From NCBI GenBank assembly GCA_963965975.1, contig OZ014425.1, forward strand, positions 1,811,501 through 1,875,500: a DNA stretch of 64,000 nt. The letters run 5' to 3'. The translations under genes were made by a program, and so were the position numbers. Of this stretch, positions 1 through 59,400 are shown piece after piece (positions within the stretch are counted from its first letter, which is position 1; each line of letters starts with the position of its first letter). This stretch comes from Xestospongia bergquistia. Its lineage: Eukaryota; Porifera; Demospongiae; Haplosclerida; Petrosiidae. The notes below the pieces were generated by a model. It was not told where the DNA came from. It saw only the letters and a list, made by a program, of their open reading frames with translations, and did not search any database.

Positions 1-194
1 TTAAGCAAGTTAACTGTGTATAAAAGACCTGCTCTGGTCATTGTCAACAACCATGATGAATTTAAATTTAAGTATTTATTGTAGTTTGTTAAATCTTGCT
101 GCTGACAGATATGTGAGTGTTAGTTAGATCACTGTGATACTGGTTATGATAGTAGTGACTTTAATGATTTTAATGGTGTTTTGTATTCATTTAG

Positions 195-393
195 AATCTT
201 GATGAATTAATCAAGTTATGCTGTTCAAAGTCATGGTCTGAGAGAAAAGATGGTATTGCTCAACTTCACCTCTTGTTGGAAAGTGATCGAGATTTATCGT
301 AAGAAGATAATCTTAAGTTAAATGACTTCTCTCTGTCTGTCTGTCTGTCTGTCTCTCTCTTTGTCTCTCTCTGTCTCTGTCTCTGTCTGTCTA

Positions 394-438
<45 letters not shown>

Positions 439-3194
439 GTGTGTCTCTCTCTGTCTCTCTCTCTCTCTGTAGTCATTCTGACATGATGCGTGTAAAAGAT
501 GTCTTTAAACGAATGTTTTCAGAACCTCATGCAAAAGTTGGTGACACTGTACTCTTTCATGTACACAGAATGTTAACAGATATACTTAAAATATTAATGT
601 GTTTACAATCACTGCAGACTGTATAGAACTCCATATGTTTTAGTTGTTGAGAATGTTCAGTATTCATTCATCTATCCAGCTGTTTATATATTTTCCTTAC
701 ATGCTAAATATTCCTCTAATTATTTATCCATTTTTATAACCTGTGTGTCCATTCTTTTAATCTGTATGTCCATCTCTTCATTCAGGTATATGGAATGTTT
801 CTAGAAACTCTATCTCGTTTTATTGAGGAACATCAAGAATATCTTGATGACTGGCTCTTTCTTCTTCTTTTACGATTATTACACAAACAAGGCACTGATA
901 TGCTCAAATCAGTTCAATTCAAGTTACAGTTAGTATTAGAACATGTGAGGTAAGACATCTACTAGTAATTGTATGGTAGTAAATTGTAGTAGTTTAAATG
1001 TCATGAAATGTCTACTATAAAATGTGTTGTCTGCCAAATGTAATTGGCTGGTTTCAAACTGATGTCTTGTGATATGAAATTAATGTCCTCTTAATTGTAT
1101 TTGTGGTGAGTAAATTTTACTATATTATTTTCCAGTAATGATACTAATATACATATGCTACTTACTGGTTTGTCAATTAGTAAGACAATAATCCTTGTTT
1201 CTTATTATTAAGGGTATGGTTTATTAATTTAATTGATATTCCTTTGTGTATGTTCTGAAAGTCTTTATTATTACAGACGTCACTTTGACGTGTCTCAACA
1301 GTTCAGTGTTTTATGTCGTATTCTTAATGATCAAACACAACCAATGAACAACAAAGTCAAACATGCTTGGTTAGAATATGTACATGAATTACTTCCTTTA
1401 ATGGATCGTGATGACTTTAAGGATACCTCAGGTATATATCATTTAAAATCATTGAAAATCACCATAGTTACTTTTAATTACTTCAATTCTTTAGAGATTC
1501 GTCAAGCATTCACTAAATTACTTGTTATGGTTGGAGAACCCAAAAGTGCTGAGATTCGTAAAGCTACACAAAATGTTATAACTGGTCTCTTTGATTTAAA
1601 TGCAGTAGTTTTTAGTTTACTGCAAAGAGGAGTCCCTCGTAATGTACAGGAATATGTTGAACGCATTATTAAAGGATATATGCAAGAGAATTCTAGTGAA
1701 GATGAAGACTGTCTCTCTCCTACCAGCAAAAACCCCTGTCTCTCTCCTACCAGCAAGACCCCTGTTGCTTCAAGAACACCTCAATCTCGTTTCTCTAAAA
1801 GTAAAGTCACACAGTCATTATCTCGTAGTCGTTTACCTATTCCTTTTGTGCGAGCAACACCTTCTGGTGGTAGAGCTACACCCTCTAGAATCCCTCGTCC
1901 ATCCAGTAGACAAGTTGGACTCCGTCCAAGAGCTAGAAGTGTTGATCCAGATCGTATGTTGGCTACCTACCAGGTACAATCAAAACCTCGTGATCGTTAT
2001 CAACGTCCTACTTCATCTCAATCAGAATACATTGGTTCATCATTACATGGAGGGGGATTCTCTAATGGTATTCAAAACCCTGTCATGCCACGACCACCTT
2101 CAACTCATAGTTTTATGTTGGATCATTTTATTTCAACATTACCTAACATAGATTTTGGATCATCTTACCCAGATGGTAAGTCACATGACATATAAATGGC
2201 AATATTTTATGGTAATTATTTTAGGTGAACCACGAGATCAAGTGGCTTTATTGTTAAAGGAAATTAAAAATGCCAGCAAGTGAGTTTGTGAAATATTGGA
2301 AAACCTGAATTTAGTGTATTTAATTTATAGTCCCAAATTACGTACAACAGCTCTACAAACAATATTATCTCTTGCTCGAGCTTATGAAAATAACAATTGG
2401 AAAGATCATATCACAGAAGCTTTAACTGTGTTTATTCATTGTCTTCAGGTAAGTAGTACTACCATCATTATAACTACATCCCTTTCAAGGACACAGATGG
2501 GCTTGTAAGAAAAAATGCACTGCGTGTTCTTCGTGAGCTCATAAAGGCACGTCCTCCTGGAATCACTCAGTTCACAGAACAACTGACAAAACAATCATTA
2601 GAGACCTTTAAAGATACTGACTGCAATGTGAGTCAGGCTGCAGAAGATCTCTTCAGTCCTTTAGCTGGTGCTCTCCCTCCTCAATGTGTACTTGATATCT
2701 TAACACCCATTGTGTCTCAAGGAGCAGATACTTCATCACTGGGAGCTCTTAAACTGATCTCTAAGGTAATGGACAATAGGAACAAAGCCATTATAAGAAT
2801 TATTGTACTTATTATTTATATAGGTGGTGAGCCATGCTGATGAGAATATGATAACTTCTAAATTAAATGAACTGGTACCTGGTATTGTCAAGGTATGATA
2901 CATTGTGTATTTTAATGTGCCTCATTTAATTTGTCTTATTTTGTTAGGGATATAGCAATGAAGAGAGCAGTGTTCGCAGACAATGTGTATACTGTTTAGT
3001 TGAAATTCATGGAGTCATTGGTGAGAAATTGAGACCACATTTAACAACTCTGTCATCTTCACAGGTAATGATGACACCTTGTCTATGTCATTGTCTCTTT
3101 CTTTTTCTCTCACAAACTCACACACACTTGCTTCCAGACTAAGTTACTTAATCTCTATATAAAAAGACATAATACAGTCACTACTAAAAAGTGA
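195..3194 (+). CDS. CLASP: CLASP microtubule plus-end protein, 3' part (partial)
   Basis: Exons by hand: 195-298, 473-536, 786-949, 1277-1431, 1495-2175, 2225-2279, 2331-2448, 2490-2765, 2824-2892, 2948-3064, 3138-3194 (stop TGA). All junctions are GT/AG and phase-consistent. The product shows a TOG-type HEAT array (LDELIKLCCSKSWSERKDG, then DWLFLLLLRLLHKQG), a Ser/Arg/Pro-rich basic linker (exon 5, with SRLP and SRIPRPSSR, the SxIP-like motif type that recruits EB1), and a second TOG-like array (VRKNALRVLRELIKARP) ending in LLNLYIKR, as in animal CLASPs. CLASPs bind tubulin through TOG domains and stabilise microtubules at plus ends and kinetochores. The N-terminal TOG domains lie upstream of the window. 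The 1495-2175 exon joins linker and TOG parts. Identity is confident; the donor of the second exon (GTTGGT at 537) was chosen because it restores the family reading KVYGMFLETL. Confidence 0.93.
330..470. repeat. TCTG/TCTC microsatellite in CLASP intron
   Basis: A pyrimidine-rich run of TCTG and TCTC units fills the intron between the first two visible CLASP exons and ends right at the acceptor (TCTGTAG, 466-472), so it also acts as the polypyrimidine tract. Confidence 0.9.
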
Positions 3195-3536
3195 CTCCTC
3201 CTATCCAAACAATAGCCACATACCTCTCTCATACTAATTCTTTTCTAGAAACAAGTTCATAGTTATCATCTCTCTTGATCTAAATAACTTCATATACAGC
3301 TAGTGCCAACTTCATTTATCGAATCATTCTTGTGACATAAAACTTATATTTTAAGGAAAAAATACAAAAATTTGTACAAAATTATTTCAAAGAATTTAAT
3401 ATAATTGATAATCACGCCATCTATTTTTAAAACTTATGATCTAAAATGAAATTTTGAAGGAACAAAAAAGTAGCAAATATATCTCTACATAATCCTAGTA
3501 ATTCTAAAGTACACAAATCAAAGGATTAGTTCAATT
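3195..3536. other. Convergent 3' end region between CLASP and the giant gene
   Basis: Only 342 bp separate two convergent stop codons, so both 3' UTRs lie here and may overlap. For the minus-strand gene an ATTAAA-type poly(A) signal is readable at 3395-3400. No clear AATAAA is seen for CLASP. No other gene is visible. Confidence 0.6.
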
Positions 3537-6500
3537 TTATGGAGTACCAATTGCACATGTAATTTTACAGTCAAATTTACCACAATCACAGAAGGCATCT
3601 ACACTTCCTTTGAACGAAATGTGGTGTCCCAAATGGCAAGTTTGCATACACTGATAACAACAGCCAGCTCTTGGATTAGTAAAGCAAGAGTGACAAAAGT
3701 AAAAAGGTTGCCTTAGATATTGATTTCCAGTGAAGTAGTTGGTACATACTTTGGTCTGGTGAGAACTAATGCCACAATGACAGATAAAATCTTCAGCATC
3801 ATGATGAGCGACTAATTCATGTCCAGAATGGCATTCATTAGCACATACTTCACAACAACCAATTCTTGATTCTTTACCCCAGCAGGACAGGCACTCGTAC
3901 CATTTCTGATTCCTGGCAGCACTTCCATATTGATCATATGTGCATTTCGGTCCAATCTTACAAGATATGTCACAGCACTCTAAGCCACAGTCACAAAATG
4001 CATTTCTGATTCCACTGTCTTCTATATCATGACCTCTGTGACAATTTTCGACACAGGCTCTGCAACATCCCTTGTTACTCTCAGTAAAACAGGTATGACA
4101 TTGATAGAGTGGCTGGTCAACATATTTTTTCTTTGTTGTTGTATAGGTACATATAGCATCAATCCTGTAGTTTGGTGTTACTTTGTGACTGCTAGCACCA
4201 CAGTCACAGAAGAAGTCTCCTGATTCATGAGACACTAAATTATGTCCTGAATGACATTCTTCAGCACATACTACACAGCATCCATAACCTGATCCTTCAT
4301 CCCAACAGGACAGGCATTCGTACCATTTCTGATTTATGAAAACACTCCCATATTGATCATATGTGCATTTCGATCCGATCTTACAATGTATGGCGCAGTA
4401 CTCTAAGCCACAGTCACAGAATGTTTTTATTATTCCACTTTCTTTTATATTGTGACCTCTGTGACAATTCTCAACACAAGCTCTGCAACATCCCTTGTTA
4501 CTCTCAGTAAAACAGGTGTGACATCGATAGAACAGCTGGTCAACACATTCTATCTTTGTTGTAGTGTAGGTACATATAGCATCAACATTGTACATTGGTA
4601 TTACTTTGTGACTGTTAGCACCACAGTCACAAGAGAAATCTCCTGATTTATGAGACACTAAATTATGCCCTAAATGGCATTCTTCAGCACATACTACACA
4701 GCACCTATAACCTGATTCTTCATCCCAACAAGACAGGCATTCATACCATTTCTGATTCCTAGCATTACTGCCATATTGATCATATGTGCATTTGGACCCA
4801 ATCCTACAAGGCAGGTCACAGCACTCTAAGCCACAGTCACAGAATGCATGAGTTATTCCACCGTATTCCATATTGTGACCTCTATGACATTTCTCAACAC
4901 AGGCACTGCAACATCCATTGTTACTCTCAGTGAAACAGGTGTGACATCGAAAGAATGGCTGTTTAACATATTCCTTTTTTGTAATTGTATAGGTACATAC
5001 ACTTTTCTTTGGTGTTACTATGTGATTGTTAGCACCACAGTCACAGAAGAAATCTCCTGACTCATGAGACACTAAATTATGTCCTGAATGGCATTCTTCA
5101 GCACATACTACACAACACCCATAACCTGATTCTTCATTAATATCCCAGCAGGACAGGCATTCATACCATTTCTGATTTTTGGCAGATCTTACATATTGAT
5201 CATAAGTGCATTTGGATCCAATCTTACAAGGTATGTCACAGCATAGTAGGCCACAGTCACAGAATGCATTTTTTATTCCGCTGTCTTTTATATTATGACC
5301 TTTGTGACAATGCTCAACACAGGCACTGCAACATCCTTTGTTACTCCCAGTGAAACAGGTGTAGCATCGATAAAATGGCTGATCAATACTTTCTTTCTTT
5401 GTTGTAGTATATGTACAGACAACATTATCAACAGTAAATGACTTTTCATTGTTTTTCTTAAGAGCTACTTTGTGTCTGTTATCACCACAGGTGCAGACAA
5501 AATCTTTTGACGTGTGAGACACTAAATTATGTCCTGAATGGCATTCTTCAGCACATACTACACAGCACCCATAACCTGATTCTTCATCCCAGCAGGACAG
5601 GCATTCATACCATTTCTGATTCATGGAAGCACTCCCATATTGATCATAGGTACACTTAGATCCAAACTTACAAGGTATGGCACAGTACTGTAGGCCACAG
5701 TCACAGAATGCACTGGATATTCCACTGTATTCCACATTGTGACCTATGTGACATTTCTCTATACATGGAGTACAACAATGTGTGTTTTTGCAGGTATGGC
5801 ATTTGTAAATATGCTGTTTAATAATATTGGTCTTGACAGAACCATATGTACAAGCAGTGCCACTTGTTGCCATAGCACTCAGGTGAGATGCTGAATGATT
5901 GTTTAAACCACAGTCACATGAAAACTCTTTTGCTTCATTTAGTACTAGTTCATGTCCTGAGTGACACTCTTTAGCACAGAGCTTACAACAGCCAAAATCA
6001 GATGTATTTGGACAGCATGTTTGACATGAATACCATTCTTGTAACTTTAAGGTATTACCATATTGGTCATAAGTGCATTGCTTTGTTTTGTGGCTATTTT
6101 CACCACAGTCACAGATGAAATCTGTGGAATCAAGAGGCACTAAACTATGTCCCAAGTGGCATTCATTAGCACATGTTTCACAACAGCTAAATTCAGATTC
6201 CTCTCCCCTGCATGTGTAACATTCAAATCCTCTCATTTTGGACATGTTAGAATGTTCATCATGTTCATCAAAAGAACATTTATGACTAATTTTACAGTTA
6301 CTTTCACATTCTTTGAGACCACAGTCACAAAAGTCATTAAAAATACCACAATACAGAATGTTATGGCTAATATGACAGTTTCGAATGCAGGAGACACAGC
6401 AACTTTCAGTAGAACAATCAACACAGCGATAGAATGGTTGCTTAACATGTTTTGTCTTCGTTAATGAATATGTACAAACTCCATCACAGGTCATTTTGTC

Positions 6501-9500
6501 TATGTAAGGAAAGAACAATCATGTATAATGATATATTATAGTATTGTTTCAAAATTAGTATATGACATACATGTACAATAAAACTTACCTTCTTTTGTGC
6601 TTTTCTTAATGATCTCAACTGATAATATTTCTAATTCTTCACTAAGTTGCTGCACAGATATCTCACTTGAAGAATATCCACAAAGAGCTTGTTGACTTAA
6701 AGCTTTAAAATCAAAAATTTGAATCTCCCCTGTTTCAACCTCTAATGCAACTTGATGTTCCCAAATCTTTTCTTGACATTTGTCTGGAGTTAAATTTGCA
6801 TATTCTACAATGTTTTTGTTTGTGCATTTTATGAATACGTTGAAAGAAGAGGCAGAGTGAAGCTTAGATTTGATCGATGCAAGATTAAGTTGAAGTTTCA
6901 TTCTGTTTTTATCCATAGAAAAATGATGGCTATAGACAGATATTGGTAAAGCAGGATCACTAACATCAACAAGTTCAACCTGGTATTGATAATCCTCTCT
7001 TTCTTCAAAAATTACTTGGATAGTGTTATCTTCTTTTTGGTAGTTCATCTCTGTTGCCAAGAACTCAATTTTAGTTTCTCTGCTAGGGCTAGAAATACAA
7101 TTAGGACCCATAGCAGTTATCTGGACAACGTACTCTCTTTTGTTAAGACTTTTCATGTCATTTTCACTCAAAAAGTATACTGAAGGTAAATAATCAGTGC
7201 ATTTGACAATACTATGAGGTGGACAGCAATCCTCAAGTAAGGCTAAAACATCTTTGTCATCAACAGTTATGATTTTTGTGAGAATTGGCACTTGGTTTGC
7301 CTTATTGGAGAACTCAATCTTGTATGCCTGTGAATGTGCGACTTGTGTCCAGATTACGATGAGAGTTCCAACTTCCAAAGAATAGAAAACATTCAATGCT
7401 TTTAGAGTTGGAAGTAGATTTATTTCATTGGAAAGTAAAGGATCACTATCCAGGGTGTTTTCATCGCCTTTTGCAATGACCATACTTTCAAGGCAGATTA
7501 GTTCTCGTACAAATTTTTTTCTTACTTGCTCAAGAGAAAATTTATGATAGAAAACAACTTCTTCACCATCTGCACACAGCTGGTAACTTGTTAGATCAAG
7601 AGAATGTTCCATTAGATACACTGGAGTCTTTCCTTCAGGAGTACATTTCAAAATTACAGACAACCCTGATTTAAAATTGTCAATAGATTTAAATGGTAAT
7701 GTCAACTTTGCTTCCAAATTTTCATTAAGTAAACATGACAATTTTGGAAGATGTTGCTGGTTGAATAACTGCATACATTCATGATGCTCACTACTAGTTC
7801 CTTCAGATGAAATGGAAAGAGCTCTTATTTGGTATGGACTTTGAAAGTCAGCAAGTGAATCAGGGAGTTTGAGAGAAAAGCCAATATTGTCATTATGAGA
7901 ATGGGATAGTAATTGACGGTTCAATACTCTTTTGGTTGTGTCTACTATTTCAACAAGGTATTCAGCAGCATTTTCAACTGTTTCAATCTCACCAGATATG
8001 CACTTTTCAAGACAATTGTTGTAAGGATGTAAAATTACAGGAGGATGAAGATCTTGGCAATGGTTAATCTCTTTGAAAAACTCACAGTGAAGTATCTTGC
8101 CAAGAAGGGTAATTTCTGTTCTCACAAGTTCAGTACCAGTACGTAAACGGAAACGACTCATTTGTTGTTCATCTGTTGGAATGATGTCTTTATTAAACTC
8201 AGGCTGGACAGTCATTCTAACACAGGCTTTAATGGAAACCTTAATAGAGATTGCCCTTGAAACCACTTTGGAGAAATTATTGTCTTTTATAATAAGTGGG
8301 TCTTTACTAGCACGCCTCCTTATATATTTGAGCTGTAGTTCGTTTTCAGTAATTTTGCCTTTAGAAACTACAGTAGCAATGATGGTAACTATGTAATCAA
8401 CTTTACCTTCTTCTTTCTCAGTGACTTCATCATCCATTTTCCAGCTTAACGAAATGTTATTGTTTGAGTCAAGTTTCATATCAAGTTCCCTTACAGTCAA
8501 TAGTTCAGATACTTCTTGCTGAGCTAGGTTGCTGATTTCATCTATATGAACTAGATCTCTCATCATTTGGTCTACCTCAGGAGTGACATCATTTCCATCA
8601 CAAGCAGAGCACATGTCCTTTATAAACTGCCCTATACCAATTACTGCAGCATATGGTCCAAACAATTCTGTAAATGGAGGTACTTTGTTTGAATGTTCAA
8701 TTGGTTCACACTCCCATTTTCCACTCTCCTTATCAAAATACAGCTTCCCTCCAATAATGCTAGCTGCAATACCATGATCACTCTCAACTTTAATACAATT
8801 AAAAATGCACCGAAAAAAGCTCCCAATAGCTTTCCCAGCTTTTACAACTTCTCTTGCCATCATTTTAGCATCTTCAATGACAGCTTTTCCAGCATCAACG
8901 ACACCTCTTACAGCACTTTTGATAATATTTCCAGGTATTTTTATAAGTTCATACCTGACCACATTCCACAGTGTTTCAAAAATTACAGCATAATTTTCTT
9001 TTGCAATTTTAAAAAGAAACTGTGACCAACTGTCTGCCAAAAACCCTGTTGGGATTCGTATGCGAATAGGAATTTCCAATGCTTCAATTTCAAATCCCAA
9101 GAACATTACCCCAAGTACAATAGTGAAGTTACATATCATCAGATATCTGTCTGGATCTGGATTCTCATCAGTACTAAATCTTACTTTAACTGTAGGAGTT
9201 GGCTTTAGACTTTTGACAAGCCTATATAAGAGTATAGCATATTTTTTAATACAACCCAGGAATTCACCAAACAATTCAAAAGGATCAAGTCCAAGTTCTA
9301 ACTTTACAATTCGAAAGTCCTTTTTTCTCCATCTTACAGTAATTGATGGCTGAAAGAAGTTTACAAGACAAAGTTTTGGAGAACCTTCGAAGTAAGTTCG
9401 TCCACGGCGACCACGTTCTTTCTTCTTGATCATTGACAGTGTACCCTGCAAAAATTGCCATCCAAAGAGCTCTATACCAACTTCAAATCTGGTGCATCCT

Positions 9501-12500
9501 TTCTCGTGGACTATTGCTGGTCCATTTTGAAACTCAAGATCTGTAAACTTCACAAAAGCAACTTTTATTTTTTCACATGCATATCCTTTCATCCACTCTA
9601 GCTTACGCTTCTTACTAAAATGAGCATGGACTGAGAATTCTTTGTCTAAAAAGAAAATAGAAGCTGTTAAGTTAAGGTCATATCCCTCTTTATAATTTTC
9701 TCCTGAATCAGTGAAACTTTTTGAAGCAAAATAAAGTGTGCCCCCTTTCTTTAAAACAAGATCAAGTGATTCCAGATCTTCTGATTCTATGTTAACAGCT
9801 TTTAGAAGACTACATACAGATATTTCTTCAGATAATGTTATTTTCAAAAGTGTTAGTTTTGTAGCTTCAAAATGTAGTAGACAATTAAAGCAGATGTTTG
9901 CTTTTAAGTCAAGTAGTCCTGTAATTTTGACTTCTGGTTTCTTTTTTTTCTTTAAGATTCCTTCAACTTTAAGGTTTCTTACAGTTCCTTTGATCTTCTT
10001 CAATCCATGTATAGAATCACTTTCAAATCCTTTAGCTGTAAGAGTTGCTGCATCATTCTGTATATTAAGTTCTGCATCAACACAAAGTCTGCCGTTACCT
10101 ACTGCTATTGAGACCTTCCCTTTTGCCAACAAATGTTGTTTCCCTTTTTCCCATGTATAGCGAAACATGAGATTGCTCACTTTAATTTCATCGTTTTCTG
10201 TCAACAACCATTCTGACAGATGGCCACAGAATATCAACTTTGGTCTTGCATTCTTCAAGTTTCCTTTGCTGATACAAACACCTATTTGTATCTCATTCAG
10301 AGATGAAGTGTCAGTGATTTCTTTCAATCCATAGAAAAAGCTTTTTTCAGAGAAGGAAAGAGCTCCCATTAGAATTACACCTGAACCTTCTATAGATGAC
10401 TTCTCTAGTAAATCTAAATGAGAAGATGAATATAAATTGAGAGAAGGTAGAGATGTGTTGTCTTTATGGCTTTCTAAAGTTGCTTGAAAGATGTCGGTAA
10501 TTTTATTATTCAGAGTTTTAAGTGAACTCTCAGGGAGAGAATAAACAAGAAGTTCTGCTGACTTAATTTGTATTAAGTTGTCAATTTCAGAGAACATGCC
10601 AGCATCTGACAGACTTGAGAACTTAAAATTCTTAACTTGAACAGATAAGACAAAGTTTGGATCTTTATTTATTCCCCTTTCAATGAACATATTTACTGAT
10701 CCCAAGCCCTCAATACTACCATCTATCAACATACAAGGCTTTGACATGTTGAAAGCTACTTTGGCTGATGTTAGGGATAACGTACGTATGTTGGTAGGTG
10801 CAAGATCAGTAAACTCAGTGTTACTTTTTTGGCCAAATTTTGCAGCACTGGAAAGAGGTAGATTAGATTTTAGTGTTCCAATAATAACACTTTCTTCTGA
10901 AATGTACATTGCACCCTTTATCTCAAAGCTATTGAAGGAAACTGAACAACTTAAGTAAAGGGACTGATAATCTTTTCCCCATATGTACTGGGCAACAGCT
11001 TTGTTGATGTGGATGTCTTCAGCAAGAGAAAAGTCAGCAACATCACCATATAATTCAAGTTTTGGTGTTTTTTTGTTTTTCTCTTTGGAGACAGTAATTC
11101 CAAATTTTATGTCAATCAATGGAGTCCCTGTTATCTTTTGTAATTTACTAAGAGGACTACCTTTCATAATATCAATGTGACAAAATAAAATAAAACCAAA
11201 TGAATCTGAAGGAAGTGAAACTTTGGCGTCTGCAAAAGTATTTAAGGATGGAAGGTTTGATAAATCAGGGAAAGAATTTGAAATTTGTTTGATAACACCC
11301 TTAGCAGATGAGTTCTGTAAGCAATACATTAACATTTCTGCAGATTTTATTTTTAGAAAATTGTCTACTTGTGTAAGAGTGTCACTTAGACTTGAAAATT
11401 GAAATCCTTTATCAAGTGACATAGACAATGCAAACCCTTTTCTATTAAGGTCAATGAACAAACCACCACTTCCTAAATTAGTAACACAACCTTCCACAAA
11501 TACAGTAGACTTTGTTGTGTTCATCAGAACTGAAGCAGACTCAAATGAAAATCCACCTTTATCAAACAAATTAAATGCATCTTTATCAATGAGAGCATCA
11601 GTTACGGTAGTCAAATTAACATGTGAAGTGATATGACCATTAAAGAAAGAATCACACTCACTGTCAGATAGTAACATTGTTCCTTCTGCAGTCACTCCAA
11701 TCTCTTCAAAGGACACACTAAAGTAGAGATTTAAGGTAACATCTGACTCTTTTTGGCTGTAGTTGAATATGGCCTTTTCAACAGTAATTGAACCAAGGGA
11801 CAGATCCAAGACTTCACCACAGATTTCCATAGTTATCTCTTTTTCACCACTACTCACCCACATACCAACATCAATGGTGTCACTAGACTGACTAACATCA
11901 GACAGTCGTTTCAGGAGGCCACTTTCAGTCTTCAGCAGGACTTCACCAATGAATAGGAGGCCAGAACATTCTTTCGAAACATCAGTTGTCATATGTTTTG
12001 GCATTGTAAGACCTAAGAAGGCCCTCAAAGACACAACTTGCCTGTCTTTGCTAACAGAATGAGACTTGTGTGTTTCTATTGCACTAGAGAAGAGATTGGT
12101 CAGTATTTCCTCAATTTGGTTGAAGGAAGTGTTTGGAAGAGAGAATGCTAGGAGATGAGCATACTTTATATCTAAAAGCTTGTCGATTTCTGAGAGATTA
12201 TTAGAGAGGTGTTCAAATAGAAAATTCTCCTCGAGTTGAATTGAAATTGCATATCCTGCTTTGCTTTTGTCTCCTCTCTCATAGAAGAGATTTCCCAATC
12301 CTAGATTGGAGATTTTGCCTTCCACCAACAAACATTCTTTTGTAATGTTAAATGCCATTGATACTTCCAAGGCTGCCCCAAAGGACATGCTGTGTTGAGG
12401 AGTGAGTTTTACCAACTCCTGATGTGAAATTGTGCCAACAATGCTAGAGAGATTAAGATCAGTTGAAAGCTTCCCAATCATAATAGAGTCTTGATCTTTG

Positions 12501-15500
12501 TCCTCACACAGTGACATTGTTCCTTCTCCAGTCACTCCAATCTCTTCAAAGGTCACACTAAAGTAAAGATTTAAGTAAGTACCCAACTCTTTTTGGCTGT
12601 AGTTGAATGCGGCCTTTTCTACAGTAAATGAGCCAAGGGACAGGTGTGATACTTCACCACAGATTTCTATAGTTGTCTCTTTTTCACCACTACTCACCCA
12701 CATACAAACATCAATGGTATCACTAGACTGACTAATGTCAGACAGTCGTTTCAGGAGGCCACTTTCAGTCTTCAACAGGACTTTACCAATGAATAGGAGG
12801 CCAGAACATTCTTTTGAAACATCAGTTGTCATATTTTCCGGTACTTTTAGACCTGAGAAGGCCTTCAAAGACACAAGTTGCTTGTCTTTGCTAACAAAGT
12901 GAGACTTGTGTGTTTCTATTGCACTAGAGAAGAGATTGGTCAGTGTTTCCTCGATTTGGCAGAAAGAATTGTTTGGAAGAGAGAATACTAGGAGACGAGC
13001 ATACTTTATATCTAAAACCTTGTCGATTTCTGAGAGATTATCAGAGAGGTGTTCAAATAGAAAACTCTCCTCAAGTTGAACTGAAAGTGCATATCCTCCC
13101 TTGCTTTTGTCTCCTCTCTCATAGAAGAGACTTCCTGATCCTAGATTGGAGGTTTTGCCTTCCACCAACAAACATTCTTTTGTAATGTTAAATGCCATTG
13201 ATACTTCCAAGGCTGTCCCAAAGGACATGCTGTGTTCAGGAGTGGGTTTTACCAGCTCCTGATGTGAAATTGTGCCAACAATGCTAGAGAGATTAAGATC
13301 AGTTGAAAGTTTCCCAATGATAATGGAGTCTTGGTCTTTGTCCTCATATAGTGACATTGTTCCTTCTGCAGTCACTCCAATCTCTTCAAATGTCACACTA
13401 AAGTAGAGATTTAAGGAAGTACCTGACTCTTTTTTGCTGTAGTTGAATATAGCCTTTTCCACAGTAAATGAGCCAATGGACAGCTCTGAGACTTCACCAC
13501 AGATTTCCAAAGTTGTCTCTCTTTCATCATTACTCACCCACATACCAACATCAATGGTGTCACTAGACTGACTAACATCAGACAGTCGTTTCAGGAGGCC
13601 ACTTTCAGTCTTCAGCAGGACTTCACCAATGAATAGGAGGCCAGAACATTCTTTCGAAACATCAGTTGTCATATGTTTTGGCATTGTAAGACCTGAGAAG
13701 GCCCTCAAAGACACAACTTGCCTGTCTTTGCTAACAGAATGAGACTTGTGTGTTTCTATTGCACTAGAGAAGAGATTGGTCAGTATTTCCTCGATTTGGT
13801 GGAAGGAAGTGTTTGGAAGAGAGAATACTAGGAGACGAGCATACTTTATATCTAAAAGCTTGTCGATTTCTGAGAGATTATTAGAGAGGTGTTCAAATAG
13901 AAAATTCTCCTCGAGTTGAATTGAAAGTGCATATCCTGCTTTGCTTTTGTCTCCTCTCTCATAGAAGAGATTTCCCAATCCTAGATTGGAGATTTTGCCT
14001 TCCACCAACAAACATTCTTTTGTAATGTTAAATGCCATTGATACTTCCAAGGCTGCCCCAAAGGACATACTGTGTTCAGGAGTGGGTTTTACCAGCTCCT
14101 GATGTGAAATTGTGCCAACAATGCTAGAAAGATTAAGATCAGACGAAAGCTTCCCAATGATAATGGAGTCTTGGTCTTTGTCCTCACACAGTGACATTGT
14201 TCCTTCTGCAGTCACTCCGATCTCTTCAAAGGACACACTAAAGTAGAGATTTAAGGAAGTATCTGACTCTTTTTGGCTGTAGTTGAATGTAGCCTTTTCA
14301 ACAGTAAATGAGCTGAGAGACAGCTCTGAGACTTTGCCACAGATTTCAATAGTTGTCGTTTTTTCACCATTACTCACCCACATACCAACATCAATGGTAT
14401 CGCTAGACTGACTAACATCAGACAGTCGTTTCAGGAGGCCACTTTCAGTCTTCAGCAGGACTTTACCAATAAATAGGAGGCCAGAACATTCTTTTGAAAC
14501 ATCAATTGTCATATATTCTGGTGCCTTTGTACTTGAGAAGGCTTTTAAAGACACAATCTGCTTGTCTTCACTAACAGAGTGAAATTTGTGTGCTTCTAAA
14601 GCACTTGAAAATAGATTAGTAAGCATTTCTTCAATGTGGTCGAATGAGTTGTTTGGAAGAGAGAATGCTAGGAGATGAGCACACTTGATATCTATGAGCT
14701 TGTCAATTCTTGAGAGGTTTTCAGATAAGTGTTGAAACTGAAAAGAATCCTTAAGTTGAACTGAAAGAGCGTATCCTGCCTTGTTTTCACCTTCTACCTG
14801 ATAGAAGAGACTTCCCAATCCTAGATTGGAGATTTCCCCCTCCATCAACAAACATTGTTTTGTGATGTTAAATGCCATTGAGACTTCCAAAGCTTTCCCA
14901 AAGAACATGCTGTGTGAGGATGTGGGTTTTACCAGCTCCTGATGTGAAATGGTGCCAACAATACTAGTTAGATTAAGATCTGATGAAAGCCTCCCAATGA
15001 TAACAGAGTCAACATGTTTGTTTTCAGATAATAACATTGTTCCTAACGCAGTCATTTGATTTTCTGGATATGAAATTTTGCAATGCAAGATAGGAGGTGT
15101 GACTGGGTTTATTTTTATCAATACATCTTCTATTCTTATTTTGCTATTAAAGGTTTTTGTGGTTTGCACTCTAAACTGTACATTACCATCATTAAAAAAT
15201 TTGAGGGACTTATAAGAGATGGGTGTAGTGATACACATTATATCTTTGTTGTTATCTTTGTATTTTATAAGAGAAAACATGGTTTTGATGTTTTCTTTTG
15301 TCATAAGGGACAAACACTCTACTTTCAAATTTAAAGCACTGTTATAAGTTACCTTAATTCTATTTCTTTTCCATTTTTTGATCACTTCATGTGTCTGCTC
15401 CTGGATTTCATCCAGTATAGCTACTTGGAACAATTCTGCAAATTTAATTGGTTGTTCACCACAATTAAAAATGCTATTCAGTGTATTAAGTAATGTCACA

Positions 15501-18500
15501 CTACTACTCATGCAGACAACAGAATGAAGGAAATACTGTTCTTTCTGGAAGTGCATCCTTAATTTTTCTGACAGGCTTTCTTTACCACAAGAGCTGGTTG
15601 AAATGAATATGATATATTGTGAATCTGTAAACAAAATAAATACAAAGATTCTTACATGTTATTTTAGATAAGCTCTTATTATTATAACTACATGTATAGA
15701 AGACACCAATGATAAGCATCAATGATAAATAGTACATACAGTCATACATGTATATTATATGTATTGTCTAATATCTAATATTGCAAAAAGTTAGAAAATG
15801 TCACAAGAAGACAATGTGGTCCTGTTCTAATTTGGTATGAGTTTTCCCAGAAGGAGTGTTTAAATTATCTCCTACACACAGGAAAGATAATTTAGAACAG
15901 ATAGTTCTTTTGCTTAAACTATTTGTTTTATTCATTTGTCCATAGCACAATCAAAAAATACTTAGGATATCATAAATTGTATGATTTTTATAAAACTCTA
16001 GCTTAAATATATTATATGAATGTTAACATGATATGGATGTGCACTTGGTTAGCATATGCTATTTATCCTGTGCTTAATGAAACAATTTTTATAAAAAAGT
16101 ATATATTGTCTTTCTTCAATTAAATGCCAACTTTAATTAACACCTTAAATGCCTGCCTTGATTAAATACTGGGAACAATCACTTTTCTTGAGTAAATAAA
16201 CATCTGACTAAATATTGCTAGAATGGTGGAGTTCCTGTTAAAATGTGTGTGTAATAGGGTAGACTTTAGTGTTATTAAAAGCTTGAAATTCAAGAAAATA
16301 GTTGACCTAGCATATAACCACAACCATGTATTTAAGCTAATCAGACAAGACTTCATTTGAAGTAGCTGGGTCTTGTTGTATCATGCTTTGAAAGTGTATC
16401 AAATATCAATGCATCTATGATTAGTAAGTGCTTTAACTATTATACCCTGAAAAGCTTTAAAATGCTAAAGAAATTTTGAATTTTATTATAAAGTAGCTAA
16501 ATTGTACACGTGATGGAAAAGAACAACAGTTAACATTTTGCTGGTAAAGGGTTAATAAATAAACAGCTACCTTGTTTTAACACTGGTCAAAAATGATTCG
16601 AATTAAATAAATGCTGGTGCAATTAATTGAGGAAATACAGTATTATTGTTGAAGTATAATTATTGTTCCTTGGAGGTAATTATTGTATTGTTGTGTGGAA
16701 CTATTTGAGGGTGACAAAAAAATTAACTCACACACATTAATTGCTGATGCATATAACAATCACAAAATTTAGTTTAATTTATCGCATGTACTATTGTGTT
16801 GAGTGTTATTATTCAGAGCTATAGCATTCTCTATAGTCTCTTTAAACTCTCTAGTTTTTAATATTACATAATTTATGGCATCAAAAATTCTTTGGAATAA
16901 CATGGTTTATGTGCAAGACAGAGAAAAGAAACAACTGTTGTTAGTTTGAGTGAACTGCTTCAAATGTTATTATATCAAGTTTTAAGATTTTCCACAATCA
17001 TTAGTAACTAAGCACATTATAGTTAGATCTACCATTATGACATTTCATGTCAACTTCAATTATTTGCTTTTGACTTAAGCTATCATGATGACAATATATT
17101 GCTTGATAATAGGCATCAAGATATATATTGACTGTATTATTGTTGAACATAATTTACTATAAAACTTGAAAGTATCAAGAATTACCTCCAAGGATAGTAT
17201 CAAGAATTCGAGACCACACTTTCTATGCTGTATCAAGTTGATACAGCATAGAAAGTGTGCATGGTCTCAAAGCAATGCACTTATCACTTCTTTCTTTGTC
17301 TCAATGTAAAAGCTATCTTAAGGTCAATGTCAATTCTAAAGCACATTTAAAATGAGATGTGGTGCCATTAGCATTTGTACTTTAAATATAAAACTAATGC
17401 ACAAGAGGCATGATTGAGAATGAGATGCTACATCAACTACTTGACCATACCTCTTGTCTATTAATTCCACAAACAAAACACACTTGAACTTCACTTCATC
17501 TATTACATATGATCATTACCTTTATCCTGATATTTCATTTCAAGAAGTATAGCATCATTATCAGAAGCATCCATCAAATGAAAAAAAATCTAAAATTATA
17601 ATCAACAATATATATATTAAAGGATGTCTATAGTTACCTCTTCTGGCTGTGGAAATGTATCTTCAGTAAGTAACAACACTATTACTAATATTGGTAAACA
17701 GACCAGGACACCATACCTATACAAATATTATGTATACATACTGATATATATGTTGCTTGACACGACATAACAAATCCCTTAATTTGAAAGAGTCTGACTA
17801 GGCTAATATTACCAATTTCAAAATAAAGCCTGACAAACTAATGCAACACAAACATGGTGAGTTTGAAGTAAGAAATATATACAAAAGTAATATCATGCAA
17901 CCAACTGGCCATGACTATATGTAAAGATATGTTAATTAAACAAAACCTGGATATTTCAAACCAAAATCACAAGTATCAGCATTGATAACTAAAATGCTTT
18001 AATTGAGCCTTATTGAGAGAATGCAGTACTTACTGATACACTTGTCTTAATTTACATTGTATCAATGTACTGATCCTTATACAAGCTCAGAATAAAAATA
18101 GATATTAAACTATTGTGATTTATCAGTCTACTTCCTGATTAATTGTCTCTCTTAAGCTTAAATTGATGGCACATGATACTCCACAGCAATGCACAAGGAC
18201 AACCTACTAATATTTAACTTGTACTAAAAGTTATATATACTCCCTCATTTTTGAGGTTTGGTAATTAAGTTAATTGTTTCAACTCTATCATGTAGTATCA
18301 TGTAACTATCCTCGTACCCAGGCTTTCGCGAATGCCTGGGTACGAGGCTATATGTAAACGTGGGATAGACATCACTATCGCGTTGTTGTAGCTTATGAAT
18401 ACTCGGTGATAGAGTATGAGCACCTTCCAAATTTGGCAGTACAGTTAGTTTAGCTTCTGATTCGCAATTGTGAGCTAAAACACAACCAAGGATAAGCAAA

Positions 18501-18747
18501 GTGTTTGCCATATATACGAATAGAAATCTGCTACAGGTTCACAATCAGCTAATGAGTAAAGGTGATCAGAACACGGACGCTCTGCTTTTAGAGAAGGTTC
18601 TCAGTTTGTCCAGTTACTTCAGCGTAGAAAATACTGCGCTATATATATATGTATAGAATAAGTTACAACTTACCAACTCCAAAATTGGATGTTAAGCAGC
18701 ATGATGACATAGGCCATCATAAATATAAGAGTTGAACCTTTGGCCAT
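3537..18747 (-). CDS. Giant ~4,073-aa repeat protein with 14 C-terminal UBR-box-like zinc fingers
   Basis: Reconstructed exons (minus): 18674-18747, 17638-17716, 17520-17589, 6589-15624, 3537-6499. Phases join exactly and the total is 4,074 codons. Order: two hydrophobic stretches in residues 1-45 (IFMMAYVIMLLNIQFWSW, then VLVCLPILVIVLLL), probably a membrane hairpin or long signal anchor; a unique segment; ~280-aa repeats (about residues 270-1390, then more divergent copies to ~1900); a basic, helix-rich stretch near 2150-2260; fibronectin-III-like segments (about 2350-3050); and from 3090 to the end 14 tandem Cys/His modules of UBR-box type. UBR boxes are known to bind N-terminal degrons, but no E3 domain (RING, HECT) is visible, so ubiquitin-ligase activity should not be assumed. 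Joining the last two large exons is well supported (GTAAGT donor, CTTACATAG acceptor, frame restored). Linking the first three small exons across a 1.9-kb intron rests on phase alone. The biological function is unknown. Confidence 0.7.
3570..6480 (-). repeat. Array of 14 UBR-box-like zinc-finger modules in one exon
   Basis: One intronless exon encodes 14 modules of ~60-75 residues. They alternate between type A (CTYTTTKK...QPFYRCHTC...CCxACVExCHRGHNI...AFCDCG) and type B (CTYDQYG...NQKWYECLSCW...GCCVVCAEECHSGHNLVS...FCDCG). The ligand series C-x-C...CxxC...CxxxCHxxH...CxCG matches the UBR box as I know it from UBR4 and FBXO11. The A/B alternation, with several almost identical B modules, shows growth by duplication of an A+B pair. 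Confidence 0.85.
11660..15060 (-). repeat. Tandem ~840-bp coding repeats (~280 aa)
   Basis: Units start near 15040, 14195, 13355, 12515 and 11675 (minus strand), a period of about 840 bp. Each encodes a GTMSL..D..SIIIGKLS start, SSIVGTISHQELVKPTP, ECLLVEGKISNLG and KRLSDVSQSSDTIDVGMWVS. The unit near 11.9-12.5 kb is more like the unit at 13.55-14.2 kb than its neighbour at 12.7-13.35 kb, which points to duplication or gene conversion of a two-unit block. The reading frame is open throughout. Confidence 0.9.
15625..17519 (-). other. Long intron 3 of the giant gene
   Basis: No convincing exon was found in this 1.9-kb AT-rich stretch; its only notable structure is the hairpin at 17210-17268. 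The intron assignment depends on the flanking phase-1 donor (17520) and acceptor (15624) belonging to one gene. Confidence 0.45.
17210..17268. repeat. Near-perfect 59-bp palindrome (hairpin)
   Basis: Arms 17215-17236 and 17238-17259 are perfect 22-bp inverted complements around a single base. A further GAGACCA / TGGTCTC pair extends the stem after a 2-nt bulge. It lies inside the putative intron of the giant gene. Confidence 0.9.
18245..18511 (-). CDS. Small ORF with possible signal peptide inside intron 1 of the giant gene
   Basis: An ATG-started 88-codon frame begins MANTLLILGCVLAHNCESE, which resembles a short signal peptide, but its second half reads through the foldback repeat at 18310-18347. 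It could be a small gene's first exon, an alternative first exon or chance. No family is recognised and no splice continuation was found. Low confidence. Confidence 0.2.
   Translation of the reverse strand: MANTLLILGCVLAHNCESEAKLTVLPNLEGAHTLSPSIHKLQQRDSDVYPTFTYSLVPRHSRKPGYEDSYMILHDRVETINLITKPQK
18310..18347. repeat. 38-bp foldback repeat
   Basis: CCTCGTACCCAGGC and its exact complement GCCTGGGTACGAGG flank T-TTCGCGAA-T, whose core is itself palindromic, so the whole 38 bp folds with one mismatch pair. It looks like the fused ends of a small foldback/MITE element. Confidence 0.85.
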
Positions 18748-21220: not shown

Positions 21221-22384
21221 TTACCACTTAATATCATTCCAGCTCAATAAATTTAATATAGCTTTATTGAAGGGACTATATATATGTTTCAATTTCTTAC
21301 GATCTTCATCTTGCAATCTCTGATGGGGGATGATTGAGGAAGCCCCCTTATTGAAAACAAATGAAGTCACTAATTGTCTTTGATCATCACTTAATGGAGA
21401 AAGTCCTAAAAACTGGTAGACTTGCCTCAAAATGAAACTAGTATTAATATAGAATTCCTCGCTATTCAAAATTAAAATATTCTCAGCTGGATAATTACAG
21501 AGCCAGTTCATTACATGTACATAATACAATCCTTCATAAATCATATTACGAGAGGGGCTGTACATACAACAAAATTTATACCACTGTGCCAGATCCATTC
21601 CAGTCGGTGAGTTCATGTGAATTCCTTTGACCAATAGAGATTTATAAAAAGAGCTTAGCTCCATATTGATGACCGTAGAGAGAGCTGTATTGTTGGTGTA
21701 TTCTTTAGTACCAAGTTTTGTTCTCATAAGAAAGTTTGATTTGTAGCGATCAATAGGATTGCGCAGAAGTAATAATATTTTTGAAAAATTACCACATGAT
21801 TCATATATTCGTTTTGGTGCTTCACAGTTCACAAAATTACCTACGCTTGCATCACCAGTCATGATAGATTGCTTTGGAAATCGTGACTTGTATAATTCCC
21901 AACTCTCCGTTGAATAACGAGCAGAAAAGTGAAATGTTTCTCCAGCTTTAGGTCCATTTTCAAGGCGAATACCCTCAAAGTCTGGATGGTGTGAGAGATA
22001 TTGATATAATGAGGTTGTTCCTGCTTTACGAGCACCAATAATGAACACAGCAGGACAAGAAGTGTGTAAGGGTTTTGTTTTTGATGGCACAACTGATTGA
22101 GATGGGCAGGAAGTAAGATCAAAGGTCAACTCACTACCAATACGGGTGTGGGAATGTTGAGAATGGGTGGGGTCAAGAGTGGATGTTCCAGGTGGTATAA
22201 AGTCTCCAATAATCTCCAGTTTGTTAATCTGCACTCTACTATAGTGAATTTTGTTCACAGTAGGAGTGTTACTACAATGACAATGACAATTCTGTAAAGG
22301 AAAGGCAATCCTATAGATCACACCTAATGCATTCAGACACAAGAGGAAGGTCACTAAGACAAATGCCAAGTCACTGATCTTCAT
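21221..22384 (-). CDS. Golgi-type carbohydrate sulfotransferase (single exon, 387 aa)
   Basis: The first ATG of the frame is at 22384 (MKISDLAF); an upstream in-frame GTG is not a plausible eukaryotic start. Residues ~3-27 form an N-terminal membrane anchor, so a type II Golgi protein is expected, followed by a Cys-rich stem (NCHCHC). The 5'-phosphosulfate-binding loop is at ~117-130 (GARKAGTTSLYQYL, after VFII) and the 3'-phosphate-binding strand/helix at ~202-216 (KILLLLRNPIDRYKSNF), both diagnostic of PAPS-dependent Sulfotransfer_1 enzymes that sulfate glycans. Which sugar is modified cannot be told. The C-terminal half keeps WLCNYPAENILILNSEEFY. The gene has no intron, and its 5' part was copied into the duplicated segment upstream (24569-25000). 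Confidence 0.9.
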   Translation of the reverse strand: MKISDLAFVLVTFLLCLNALGVIYRIAFPLQNCHCHCSNTPTVNKIHYSRVQINKLEIIGDFIPPGTSTLDPTHSQHSHTRIGSELTFDLTSCPSQSVVPSKTKPLHTSCPAVFIIGARKAGTTSLYQYLSHHPDFEGIRLENGPKAGETFHFSARYSTESWELYKSRFPKQSIMTGDASVGNFVNCEAPKRIYESCGNFSKILLLLRNPIDRYKSNFLMRTKLGTKEYTNNTALSTVINMELSSFYKSLLVKGIHMNSPTGMDLAQWYKFCCMYSPSRNMIYEGLYYVHVMNWLCNYPAENILILNSEEFYINTSFILRQVYQFLGLSPLSDDQRQLVTSFVFNKGASSIIPHQRLQDEDRKKLKHIYSPFNKAILNLLSWNDIKW

Positions 22385-22605
22385 ACCTTGTACAACTTTT
22401 TTGTAGCCCACTTTTTAGTGTGTCACATATAGGGGGTGTAACTGAGTCAGTAATTAATTATAAAATTGCCTATTTTATGTGATTAATGGAGGACCACACC
22501 CTTAGATCATTGGCACAAAAGAACAATAAAGGACTGCAATATTGACACATTTAGTAGTATGGAAATATGATGGATGTAGTATTTGTATTACATCCAAAAA
22601 TAATA

Positions 22606-56439: not shown

Positions 56440-59400
56440 ATGGCTGAAGATTCTCTTCCTATTGACATTCACTACAATAAATTGTTAGGTAAGATAATAA
56501 GCCATAAACATTATTTAATGACTAAATTATGTACTGAATTTAGATTGGTTAATAGACCGTCGACATTGTGACATACGTTGGCACCATCAGTTACGAGACA
56601 TCAAAGATAAGATCAAACATGGTCTTGTAAACCTCCCAAGAGATGTCCTCGAACTCAAGTCTGTCTTTGCTAAAGAAGGTAGTTGTACATAATTCAATAT
56701 TATAAAGACTTTATGATATGATAGATACAACTTATATTGACTGTATTGATGTGATGGAGTACTTGAAAACAGTTGAGTCTCCTGATAAAAATATTCTTGG
56801 CCAATATTCATCAGCAAAACTAAAGGTATTTTAAGTAGTACATTTTAGAAGTTGAAATTATACTAGAATTTTTAATCTATATGTGAACAGAAATGTCTAA
56901 AATGTTTTATTTGGATATCCTCTTAATTATAAGGAAAACACATTAACTAGTTATGATTGTAGTCTTAATATTAATCAGGTAATTCATTGGCTTATATGAT
57001 AGATTGAGGGTCAGGATCACCATATCAGAATGCTTCCCTCACTAACATTGTACTAGGCCTATCTTCTCTATTGATTAAATGACAGACTAAAAAGGGACTT
57101 TGGCCATATGGCAAAATATGAATTTAACAAAGATATTGATGAAAAGATTACTATGATATAGTTGGAAATATGACGAAATGTCATATTAGGATTATAATGC
57201 TGTTAGTAATGGTGGACCAGATTATTGCAATACATTTGCCTTAGTTCAGGTAACTATATTAGCAAGAATAAAATTTGGGCAAACAGCTTGTAATTAAACC
57301 AAGTTAAAATATGATAAGGTAGTGTTAAGAGTAATTATAGTGTAAGATTTAGTAAATCAACAAGAGTTGTCAAATCACAAATTTAAACCCTTAGCTCAAT
57401 TTTCTGTTATATTTTACATTCTTGCAGTAACATTAACTGTTATATATGTGATGTACAATGGAGATTTGTAATTTGATTAAATCAATGAAATAAAAAAATA
57501 GAGAGATACTTTGTGTTTTTTTGTTATTGTATAAGTCTGCTGTGATTATGGAAATAGTTTTTAGCCATTTACATCAAAGTAATTTTGTAGTCTACTAGTC
57601 TCTACTAGTTTGAATAGGAAGGACAGTATTATGAGGAAGACGGGAAGAGGTTATAATAATAGTATAGCAAAAGTTATCTTAAGACAGAACATGTCTTTAA
57701 TCAAAAAAAAACATGCTAATAAGTACAATTATAACAAGATTGTTCAAATGATAGCCACACCCACAACCACAATAATAGCTCTCCTGAGTGGTGTTTTAAT
57801 TAAGTACGTGGGAGTTTCATATCTTTTTTTTCTTATTGTGTGTTTCTGGTCTGCATAATATTTTATTACATTTTGTGTTATTAGGAATGGAATGATATCC
57901 TCAGATCATATGAAAAAAAGAATTTACATTTAGGTAAACTAAACTGAATAATCAACAAAATACTAATACCATTATCATTAGCTGAAGGTGCTCAAATGAT
58001 GACACGTCTTGTAAATTATGAGATAGCATCTCTTAAGAGACAAATTAGTCGTTGCCAACAACAACAAAGGGTAAATTAAGCTAAATTATTTTATAATGAC
58101 ATTTTGGATGTTGTATTAATTGTAGGAAAGTGCACGTAAATCTACTGAGAGTCAAGCTAATGCCATCACTCTACAGACGAGGTTTGGGGAGCAATGTAAA
58201 GAATTAGGAATCAAGGTTAGTTAGTGAGGGATTATTTTCAATTTTGTAAGCTGATCCGCCTTGCGCTGCTACGCTGACCAATGTTGCAAATTCTTGGTAG
58301 AAGCATTGCAGACTTTCTCTGTACTTCTGATATTGTTTGTGATTTTTCTACTTGTTACTTATGAAGGAAAGAAGAATATTAAGAGCTGACACTATGAGTG
58401 ATGGGAATGTTCTGACGATCAAGCATGCATTGAACATGTCATAAAAACACCAAACTACTTGTTCTCGCTAAGTGAAAGACATTCAAATAAAGAAAGCTAA
58501 ATGTATTAATATATTACTGTGTGAGCCTGATTGCACCAATGGGACTATTTGCAGAGTCAAACTTTAAGTTCCCAGAGAGAAGAAAATACTGAATATTGTT
58601 CTATGATAAATTTCACAAAGCACATCAGACATCCAGGGAATAATATGAAATCAACTGAATCTCCAGGAACTGGTAGAAAACCTACCAGACCTCCAAAAAA
58701 TTCTACACAAGCTGGTACTAAACTTACTACAAAATCTACTACTAGACCTCCCAAACCTTCTATACCTCCTGGAACTGAGTCTCCTAAACCCCCTGGAGTT
58801 GATGCAAAATCTACTCCTAAACACCTGGACCTCCTACACCCCCCTGGATCTGATACAAAATAGGAACTTGTACGAAATGTATGGAGGGTCTTGGCACTAA
58901 ACGATAAACAAAGGCCAGTTTCTTTGAACCAGATGAGCCATTTTCCTTCTAATTTGTAATTTGAATGTTTCTAAAATTTTATTTTTAATATGAACATGAT
59001 AACAAAACAACACAAAACTACTGAAATGGAGTTTGCTATTATTTACCTCCTGGAGCGCCCTCAATTTCAGTTGGAGTAGGAGTAGGTCCATCATTAGAAG
59101 TAGTCTGGTCTATAGATGTTGTCATAACAACAGCAGGAACAGTAGTTTCACCTGAAGGAACAGTGGTTTCAGCAATAGATGTTGTTACCAAAGAGGGTAC
59201 CTCTGACGTTCTTGGTTGAAGAACCACAGTTGTTGGTTGTGGTGTCACATCAACACATCTTATGATAAACTTTGATCTGGTACGTGGAAATGGGAATCGA
59301 TTACTATACTTACCACATCCTGTAATTTGACATATTTGACCAACGGGGCAATTCAACTCTTCACAAGTACGAGGTGTGCGACATCGTACTTCAATCCCTC

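Follow-up and report, generated by a model that had tools for sequence, protein, structure and literature searches.

The window analysed here (the whole 64,000-nucleotide stretch of the Xestospongia bergquistia genome) contains on its minus strand a predicted gene of five exons, which form one open frame of 12,222 bases (4073 aa). The gene model is inferred from paralogue conservation and in-frame splice sites, and the predicted protein has two N-terminal hydrophobic segments, a repeat-bearing region of about 3000 aa and then an array of UBR boxes (Table 1). The initial annotation had placed 14 UBR-box-like modules in one exon at 3537..6499, and our results agree: the open frame at 3537-6518 (minus strand) encodes 993 aa with 14 PF02207 stretches inside, and the whole 993-aa protein matches PF02207 with E 1.2e-75 and 250 bits (cut-off 25.2), so the UBR-box identity that it proposed is borne out by HMM search. 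The exon coordinates also stand, as a conserved acceptor sets the bounds of exon 5 at 6499-3537, but exon 5 supplies just the C-terminal end of a far larger predicted gene; the giant N-terminal part, the paralogue and the fused relatives described below have no counterpart in the initial annotation. The exon 4 to exon 5 join (donor AAG|GTAAGT, acceptor TTACATAG) is in frame (phase 1), and the protein ends 13 residues past the FCDCG of box 14.

Table 1. Features of the predicted UBR-array gene, in window positions
Feature	Position	Strand	Basis
Exon 1: start codon and first hydrophobic segment (MAKGSTLIFMMAYVIMLLNIQFWSW)	18674..18747	-	paralogue conservation, inferred
Exon 2: second hydrophobic segment (YGVLVCLPILVIVLLL...)	17638..17716	-	paralogue conservation, in-frame splice sites
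Exon 3	17520..17589	-	70/70 bases identical in paralogue, in-frame splice sites
Exon 4: giant, 9036 bases, 258-280-aa repeats then unique region	6589..15624	-	
Exon 4 repeats, six of 258-280 aa	10178..15130	-	starts 15130, 14299, 13459, 12619, 11779, 11005
Exon 5: 14-UBR-box array and stop codon	3537..6499	-	PF02207; phase-1 join to exon 4
UBR box 1, type A	6318..6476	-	pattern search and alignment
UBR box 2, type B	6102..6278	-	pattern search and alignment
UBR box 3, type B	5907..6077	-	pattern search and alignment
UBR box 4, type A	5694..5852	-	pattern search and alignment
UBR box 5, type B	5484..5654	-	pattern search and alignment
UBR box 6, type A	5250..5417	-	pattern search and alignment
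UBR box 7, type B	5034..5210	-	pattern search and alignment
UBR box 8, type A; Y, F, D at UBR4 F1671, F1713, D1715 positions	4830..4997	-	
UBR box 9, type B	4620..4790	-	pattern and single-box structure match
UBR box 10, type A	4407..4574	-	pattern search and alignment
UBR box 11, type B; sole window B box with F, F, D	4197..4367	-	
UBR box 12, type A; Y, F, D	3984..4151	-	
UBR box 13, type B	3771..3944	-	pattern search and alignment
UBR box 14, type A; Y, F, D	3579..3746	-	
Tandem repeat, 423-base period (one A-B pair), 3.8 copies, 83% matches	3814..5417	-	TRF, array bases 1083-2686

The sole Pfam family of exon 5 is zf-UBR. All 14 boxes fit the three-zinc pattern of Cys/His ligands, CxxC...CxxC...CH..H...CxCG, and keep the first Cys (pattern search), and nine of them singly exceed the cut-off among the matches listed in a genome-wide PF02207 search. 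When searched alone against solved structures, A box 8 matches FBXO11 and UBR4 (E 2.6e-13), and B box 9 matches plant BIG (E 1.6e-9) and UBR4 (E 1.6e-8). Whole exon 5 matches 17 solved sequences at E up to 0.1, including FBXO11, UBR4, BIG and UBR5 boxes, and a profile built from 16 three-box units also matches 17, all from UBR-box proteins. The predicted structure of boxes 8-10 has low confidence (mean pLDDT 54.9), with none of its 58 fold matches having E < 0.001; among the best 50 of the 58 (E up to 10), 46 are UBR boxes, three are ZZ domains and one is unrelated. Judged by sequence, the 14 boxes are true UBR boxes.

The array consists of seven A and seven B boxes. A boxes carry CGxxxC plus an extra Cys after CxCG, and B boxes carry CGxxxH (7/7) and, in five of the seven, CW after the first CxxC; the last zinc ligand would be a Cys in A boxes, with a His as the candidate in B boxes. 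The strict A/B alternation described earlier fails, because boxes 2 and 3 are both of type B: the order is A-B-B-A-(B-A)x5. The FCDCG ending had been assigned to all 14 boxes, which holds for every A box (7/7) and for B boxes 7 and 11; the other five B boxes end in ICDCG, SCDCG, VCTCG or ICHCG.

A paralogue nearby has the same five exons, a predicted 8734 aa and 20 boxes, and its stop codon lies 58 kb away from that of the window gene. It includes a single open frame of 7234 aa (C15:1761058-1782762, 21.7 kb) made mostly of very similar 280-aa repeats. In exon 1, conservation between the two genes begins 6 bases ahead of the ATG and extends across the GTAAGT donor, and exon 2 is 39 bases longer in the paralogue; exons 1-3 are the least sure part of the model, since non-coding stretches are conserved there too. 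Exons 1-3 gave only a below-cut-off Pfam match to ABC_membrane_3 (E 0.0055) over the hydrophobic start. Hydropathy peaks lie within residues 2-38; a third peak, about as high, falls near residue 2234, so that more than one membrane topology would fit. Exon 4 has no Pfam family below E 0.05 and no significant family in Pfam, NCBIfam or solved-structure searches. The DUF6603 giant repeat proteins were considered as candidates for this exon; PF20248 (DUF6603) has no Pfam match in exon 4, nor any match in the genome at E up to 10, where 14 controls were likewise without a match. The predicted fold of one exon 4 repeat is beta-rich (low confidence), and a genome search with the repeat gave 27 matches, of which the window gene accounts for six and its paralogue for the other 21, with no further locus matched.

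Between the window gene and its paralogue, dN/dS is 0.36 and 0.32 in the two unique regions of exon 4, and 0.33 and 0.27 in two other regions, which contain just 22 and 11 changes; values between boxes run from 0.19 to 0.40. By these ratios, the gene is under purifying selection. We note that a plus-strand neighbour gene (window 1-3206), which presumably is CLASP-like (its only Pfam match, UTP20_N, is sub-threshold), was copied together with the UBR gene, its second copy at C15:1751572-1754835 having 91-95% DNA identity. The window also contains two minus-strand frames: a 397-aa single-frame sulfotransferase at 21221-22414 (PF00685, E 2.9e-10), and a 352-aa cysteine-rich frame at 59039-60097 with a hydrophobic start, a Thr-rich end and no matching Pfam family.

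A protein search returned 18 proteins, including the window's own (P0003). The initial annotation knew of no protein with such an array; this did not hold, as the paralogue and four close relatives (P0001, P0002, P0004 and P0005, with 22, 20, 16 and 14 boxes, respectively) all carry arrays, and shorter ones are found in fused proteins. P0004 and P0019 (5232 aa) are probably parts of one gene in another assembly. P0002 and P0005 are 99.6% identical over the first 265 and 100% over the last 125 residues, with 20 versus 14 boxes; likewise, the paralogue and P0001 are 97.4% and 99.2% identical over the same stretches, with 20 versus 22 boxes. Box counts in the six sequences are all even (14, 14, 16, 20, 20 and 22), which fits whole pairs coming and going. 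An astacin domain is joined to the boxes in P0006-P0010 and P0012, and a protein kinase to C-terminal A-B-A boxes in P0011. In P0013 (1170 aa, from another assembly), the last LRR runs directly into a C-terminal B-A pair, and beside the LRRs NLRC4_HD2 is matched weakly, at 23.7 bits against a cut-off of 33.1; because its B box lacks the first cysteine, P0013 is either a fusion or an artefact, and may result from gene calling or recombination. UBR boxes are also combined with a PARP catalytic domain in P0014 and with ankyrin repeats in P0015, with no B boxes among those found in these two proteins. The window's own genome has a third array locus (A-B-A, at C1:5351000) and two remaining UBR loci, which look like UBR7 and UBR1/2; no UBR4-, UBR5- or FBXO11-like exons are among the genome-wide PF02207 matches listed, and no astacin-UBR fusion was seen in this genome.

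To place the two types, a maximum-likelihood tree was built with 47 boxes: all 14 window boxes, 8 of the 20 paralogue boxes and the three of the C1 locus, together with six boxes of P0007, three of P0011, five of P0012, two of P0013 and six of P0014-P0018 (boxes of P0001, P0002, P0004-P0006 and P0008-P0010 were left out). One branch parts A from B with support 99/99 and in 100% of 200 bootstrap trees, on 66 columns that perhaps include the very residue on which the A/B label rests, and with 13 of the 44 inner branches open and several long-branch rows. Support is thus strong for the A/B split and weak for the inner branching. The boxes of UBR4-like P0016 and FBXO11-like P0018 group on the A side, and the split is common to five kinds of protein. 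As placed by this tree, A and B parted before the sampled boxes diverged, and the B-A pair is old and reused, because the split is common to astacin-, kinase- and LRR-fused proteins of other assemblies; the pair may have spread into its present carriers through later shuffling.

For the ligand pocket, we compared the boxes with UBR4, in which, according to the available text of PMC10687169, the ligand amino group is held by D1715 and the F1713 oxygen, F1671 and F1713 form an aromatic surface (F1671A or F1713A abolishes binding), Arg is bound without use of the box's own D153 counterpart, and a single site is weak (about 45 micromolar for an Arg peptide). The register was fixed by aligning the UBR4 chain to box 8, and the 1671 place of box 2 is by position only because the first spacing is longer in that box. 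Window A boxes have F at 1713 in 7/7, D at 1715 in 7/7 and an aromatic at 1671 in 3/7, and B boxes in 2/7, 5/7 and 1/7, respectively. The corresponding counts (in the order 1713, 1715, 1671) in the paralogue are 10/10, 10/10 and 8/10 for A boxes and 2/10, 9/10 and 0/10 for B boxes. Overall, the 1671 aromatic is present in 4/14 window boxes (3 A, 1 B) and 8/20 paralogue boxes, and the full aromatic-aromatic-Asp set in 4/14 window boxes (8, 11, 12 and 14). Pooled over seven sequences (window, paralogue, C1, P0002, P0007, P0011 and P0013), the counts are 35/35, 34/35 and 26/35 for A boxes and 8/33, 23/33 and 5/33 for B boxes, many of them near-copies and so non-independent. P0004 and P0006 were dropped from the pool (the automatic rule called one A box in each B); as labelled, P0004 has 7, 6 and 4 of 7 A boxes and 5, 7 and 1 of 9 B boxes, and P0006 has 2, 2 and 1 of 2 A boxes and 1, 4 and 4 of 4 B boxes. 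P0012, also dropped, has diverged boxes, one of the six seen by eye being missed, and gives 2, 1 and 0 of 2 A boxes and 0, 1 and 0 of 3 B boxes; P0001, P0005 and P0008-P0010 are outside the pocket count.

The second Asp of UBR1/2-type boxes (UBR2 D153) is absent from 13/14 window boxes, and box 5, which has an Asp at that place, has Thr for D1715; this absence argues against a UBR1/2-type Arg site. Of the two functions raised in the initial annotation, an N-degron sensor or sponge and a repurposed zinc scaffold, the A-box pocket residues favour the sensor, and the frequent pocket loss in B boxes favours a structural or retuned role of that half. Pocket residues are no proof of binding, because the box of FBXO11-like P0018 also has F and D at the 1713 and 1715 places and the N-recognin function of FBXO11 is called 'largely unknown' in the available text of PMC8346999.

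The earlier remark that no RING or HECT domain is visible agrees with the Pfam results, which show no match to any E3 part (RING, HECT, F-box or PHD) at E up to 1 in exons 1-5; apart from zf-UBR, that threshold brought up only ABC_membrane_3 and Imm68 (E 0.059), both below their cut-offs. ATE1 is usually encoded by one gene in animals. In this genome, arginyltransferase (PF04377) matches were found at five places, four of them ATE_C matches in open frames (L019-L022, at C5:8678818, C11:6479505, C5:213679 and C8:6643101). Three of these frames have ATE_N and ATE_C (one begins within ATE_N), and in another, 1289 aa long, ATE_C comes last and an armadillo (ARM) match falls below its cut-off; the fifth match (C8:6610470) has a stop.

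Several explanations of the array have to be weighed. The main rival of the reading that we prefer below is a zinc scaffold, in which the boxes no longer bind N-termini and form a stiff cysteine-rich rod or a protein-protein contact surface. We consider it possible, if on the doubtful side: F1713 is lost in 5/7 and the 1671 aromatic in 6/7 window B boxes, with the full set in only 4/14 boxes; FBXO11, among the closest solved relatives, has a box also solved in domain-swapped form (title of 5vmd), and tandem boxes might interlock in that way; and array length varies freely (14 versus 20 boxes in the near-identical P0005 and P0002). A scaffold, however, has no need to keep F1713 and D1715 in A boxes, where the pooled, non-independent counts are 35/35 aromatic and 34/35 Asp, as compared to 8/33 and 23/33 in B boxes. 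At the other extreme, an unexpressed or decaying tandem repeat is hardly credible given the intact box patterns, dN/dS of 0.27-0.36 and the open frames of 3040, 7234 and 5232 aa kept in the two paralogues and P0019.

The array could also be the substrate-binding part of a multi-chain ligase or autophagy receptor, making the protein a degradation-pathway adaptor and an N-recognin in function. UBR4 works in complex with KCMF1 and calmodulin (titles of 9hxw and 9d9z), and the genome has ATE genes and exons that look UBR1/2- and UBR7-like; the five exons, however, contain no E3 or other degradation-pathway family by Pfam and there is no tie to a ligase, so we regard this as distinctly unlikely. 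A secreted or lumenal protein, with the first hydrophobic segment as signal peptide and the array outside the cytosol (e.g. in defence or adhesion), is highly unlikely. In its favour are the hydrophobic N-terminus and the description of astacins, fused to the same boxes elsewhere, as extracellular in the available text of PMC9848320. Against it, zinc-cysteine boxes are typical of the cytosol, the N-terminus has a second hydrophobic segment besides the first, glycosylation sequons are near chance (34 observed, 31 expected), and the astacin-UBR proteins P0006 and P0007 start with a charged, not hydrophobic, stretch (by eye).

With somewhat less than even confidence, we therefore lean towards a reader of N-termini that is multivalent but no E3 ligase in its own right, and whose B boxes are structural or retuned. 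This reading builds on the domain family, the array, the gene model by paralogue conservation, the pocket residues, the constraint and the old A/B division; the membrane end, the cytosolic array, ligand binding, avidity and output are the steps that it would add. The even box counts and the arginylation enzymes of this genome (four open frames with ATE_C) also speak for it, and the full pocket set in only 4/14 window boxes speaks against it. The protein would be anchored at a membrane by its N-terminus (going by hydropathy alone), displaying the array on the cytosolic side. A boxes would bind exposed protein N-termini via a UBR4-type pocket (F1713 backbone, D1715 side chain and often the 1671 aromatic), and repetition would turn weak single sites into avid or cross-linking capture, with B boxes holding neighbouring A boxes apart or reading something else. 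As Pfam finds no E3 domain, the protein would not ubiquitinate its ligands directly; it would sequester or cluster them, or pass them on to a partner ligase.

The usual job of a UBR box is to read the first residue of proteins marked for destruction. Arrays of 14 to 22 boxes, of two old types and with protease, kinase and LRR partners, suggest N-terminus reading outside degradation; with no recognisable ubiquitin-ligase part here, the UBR domain may serve a further purpose, either in multi-site reading or as a scaffold. A bolder proposal, which we hold to be rather unlikely, is that the B-A unit, older than its carriers, is a plug-in N-terminus reader outside ubiquitin ligases, serving an N-terminus code for signalling or defence instead of degradation. 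In this picture, the unit sits at the C-terminus of a protease (astacin), of a kinase, of a protein of LRR/NLR-like type and of a giant repeat protein that would be anchored, and, if the proposal is true, it may read N-termini produced by proteolysis and by the several arginyltransferases of this genome. The plain question, whether A boxes bind free N-termini and gain avidity by repetition, can be tested with short recombinant pieces.

UBR boxes are familiar as substrate-binding domains that occur singly, most of them in E3 ligases. We found no description of a multi-UBR-box array in the listed titles and abstracts of the open-access literature; in the available text of PMC11134608, 'tandem UBR' refers to UBR5 domains, not arrays. 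The astacin fusion is already on record, with ZF-UBR among the astacin accessory domains in the available text of PMC9848320. Astacin-UBR proteins carry 4 to 7 C-terminal boxes by pattern, which for P0007 and P0012 fall into these B and A types in the tree, but are short, with an N-terminal metallopeptidase and without giant repeats; P0011 and P0013 similarly end in A-B-A and B-A boxes, but carry kinase or LRR domains. The ZZ domain of p62/SQSTM1, present in single copy in each protein, is a different domain. In common with a UBR box, it contains zinc and binds residues at protein N-termini (PMC10687169 and PMC6197226, available text). The best-scoring solved relatives include FBXO11 and UBR4/BIG (subfamily 2 in the available text of PMC10687169). 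The UBR6/FBXO11 box aligns with A box 8 at near full length including the last cysteine (E 2.6e-13), whereas FBXO11-like P0018 has one box with F-box and beta-helix domains. UBR4 shares with A box 8 the pattern CTxTITxKE[YF]..Q...CHTC...CH..H...FCDCG; window B boxes differ from UBR4 in having His (CGxxxH, 7/7) where A boxes have Cys and in usually lacking the pocket aromatics, and UBR4 as a whole places one box inside a giant E3, while the window protein has 14 boxes and no E3 domain.
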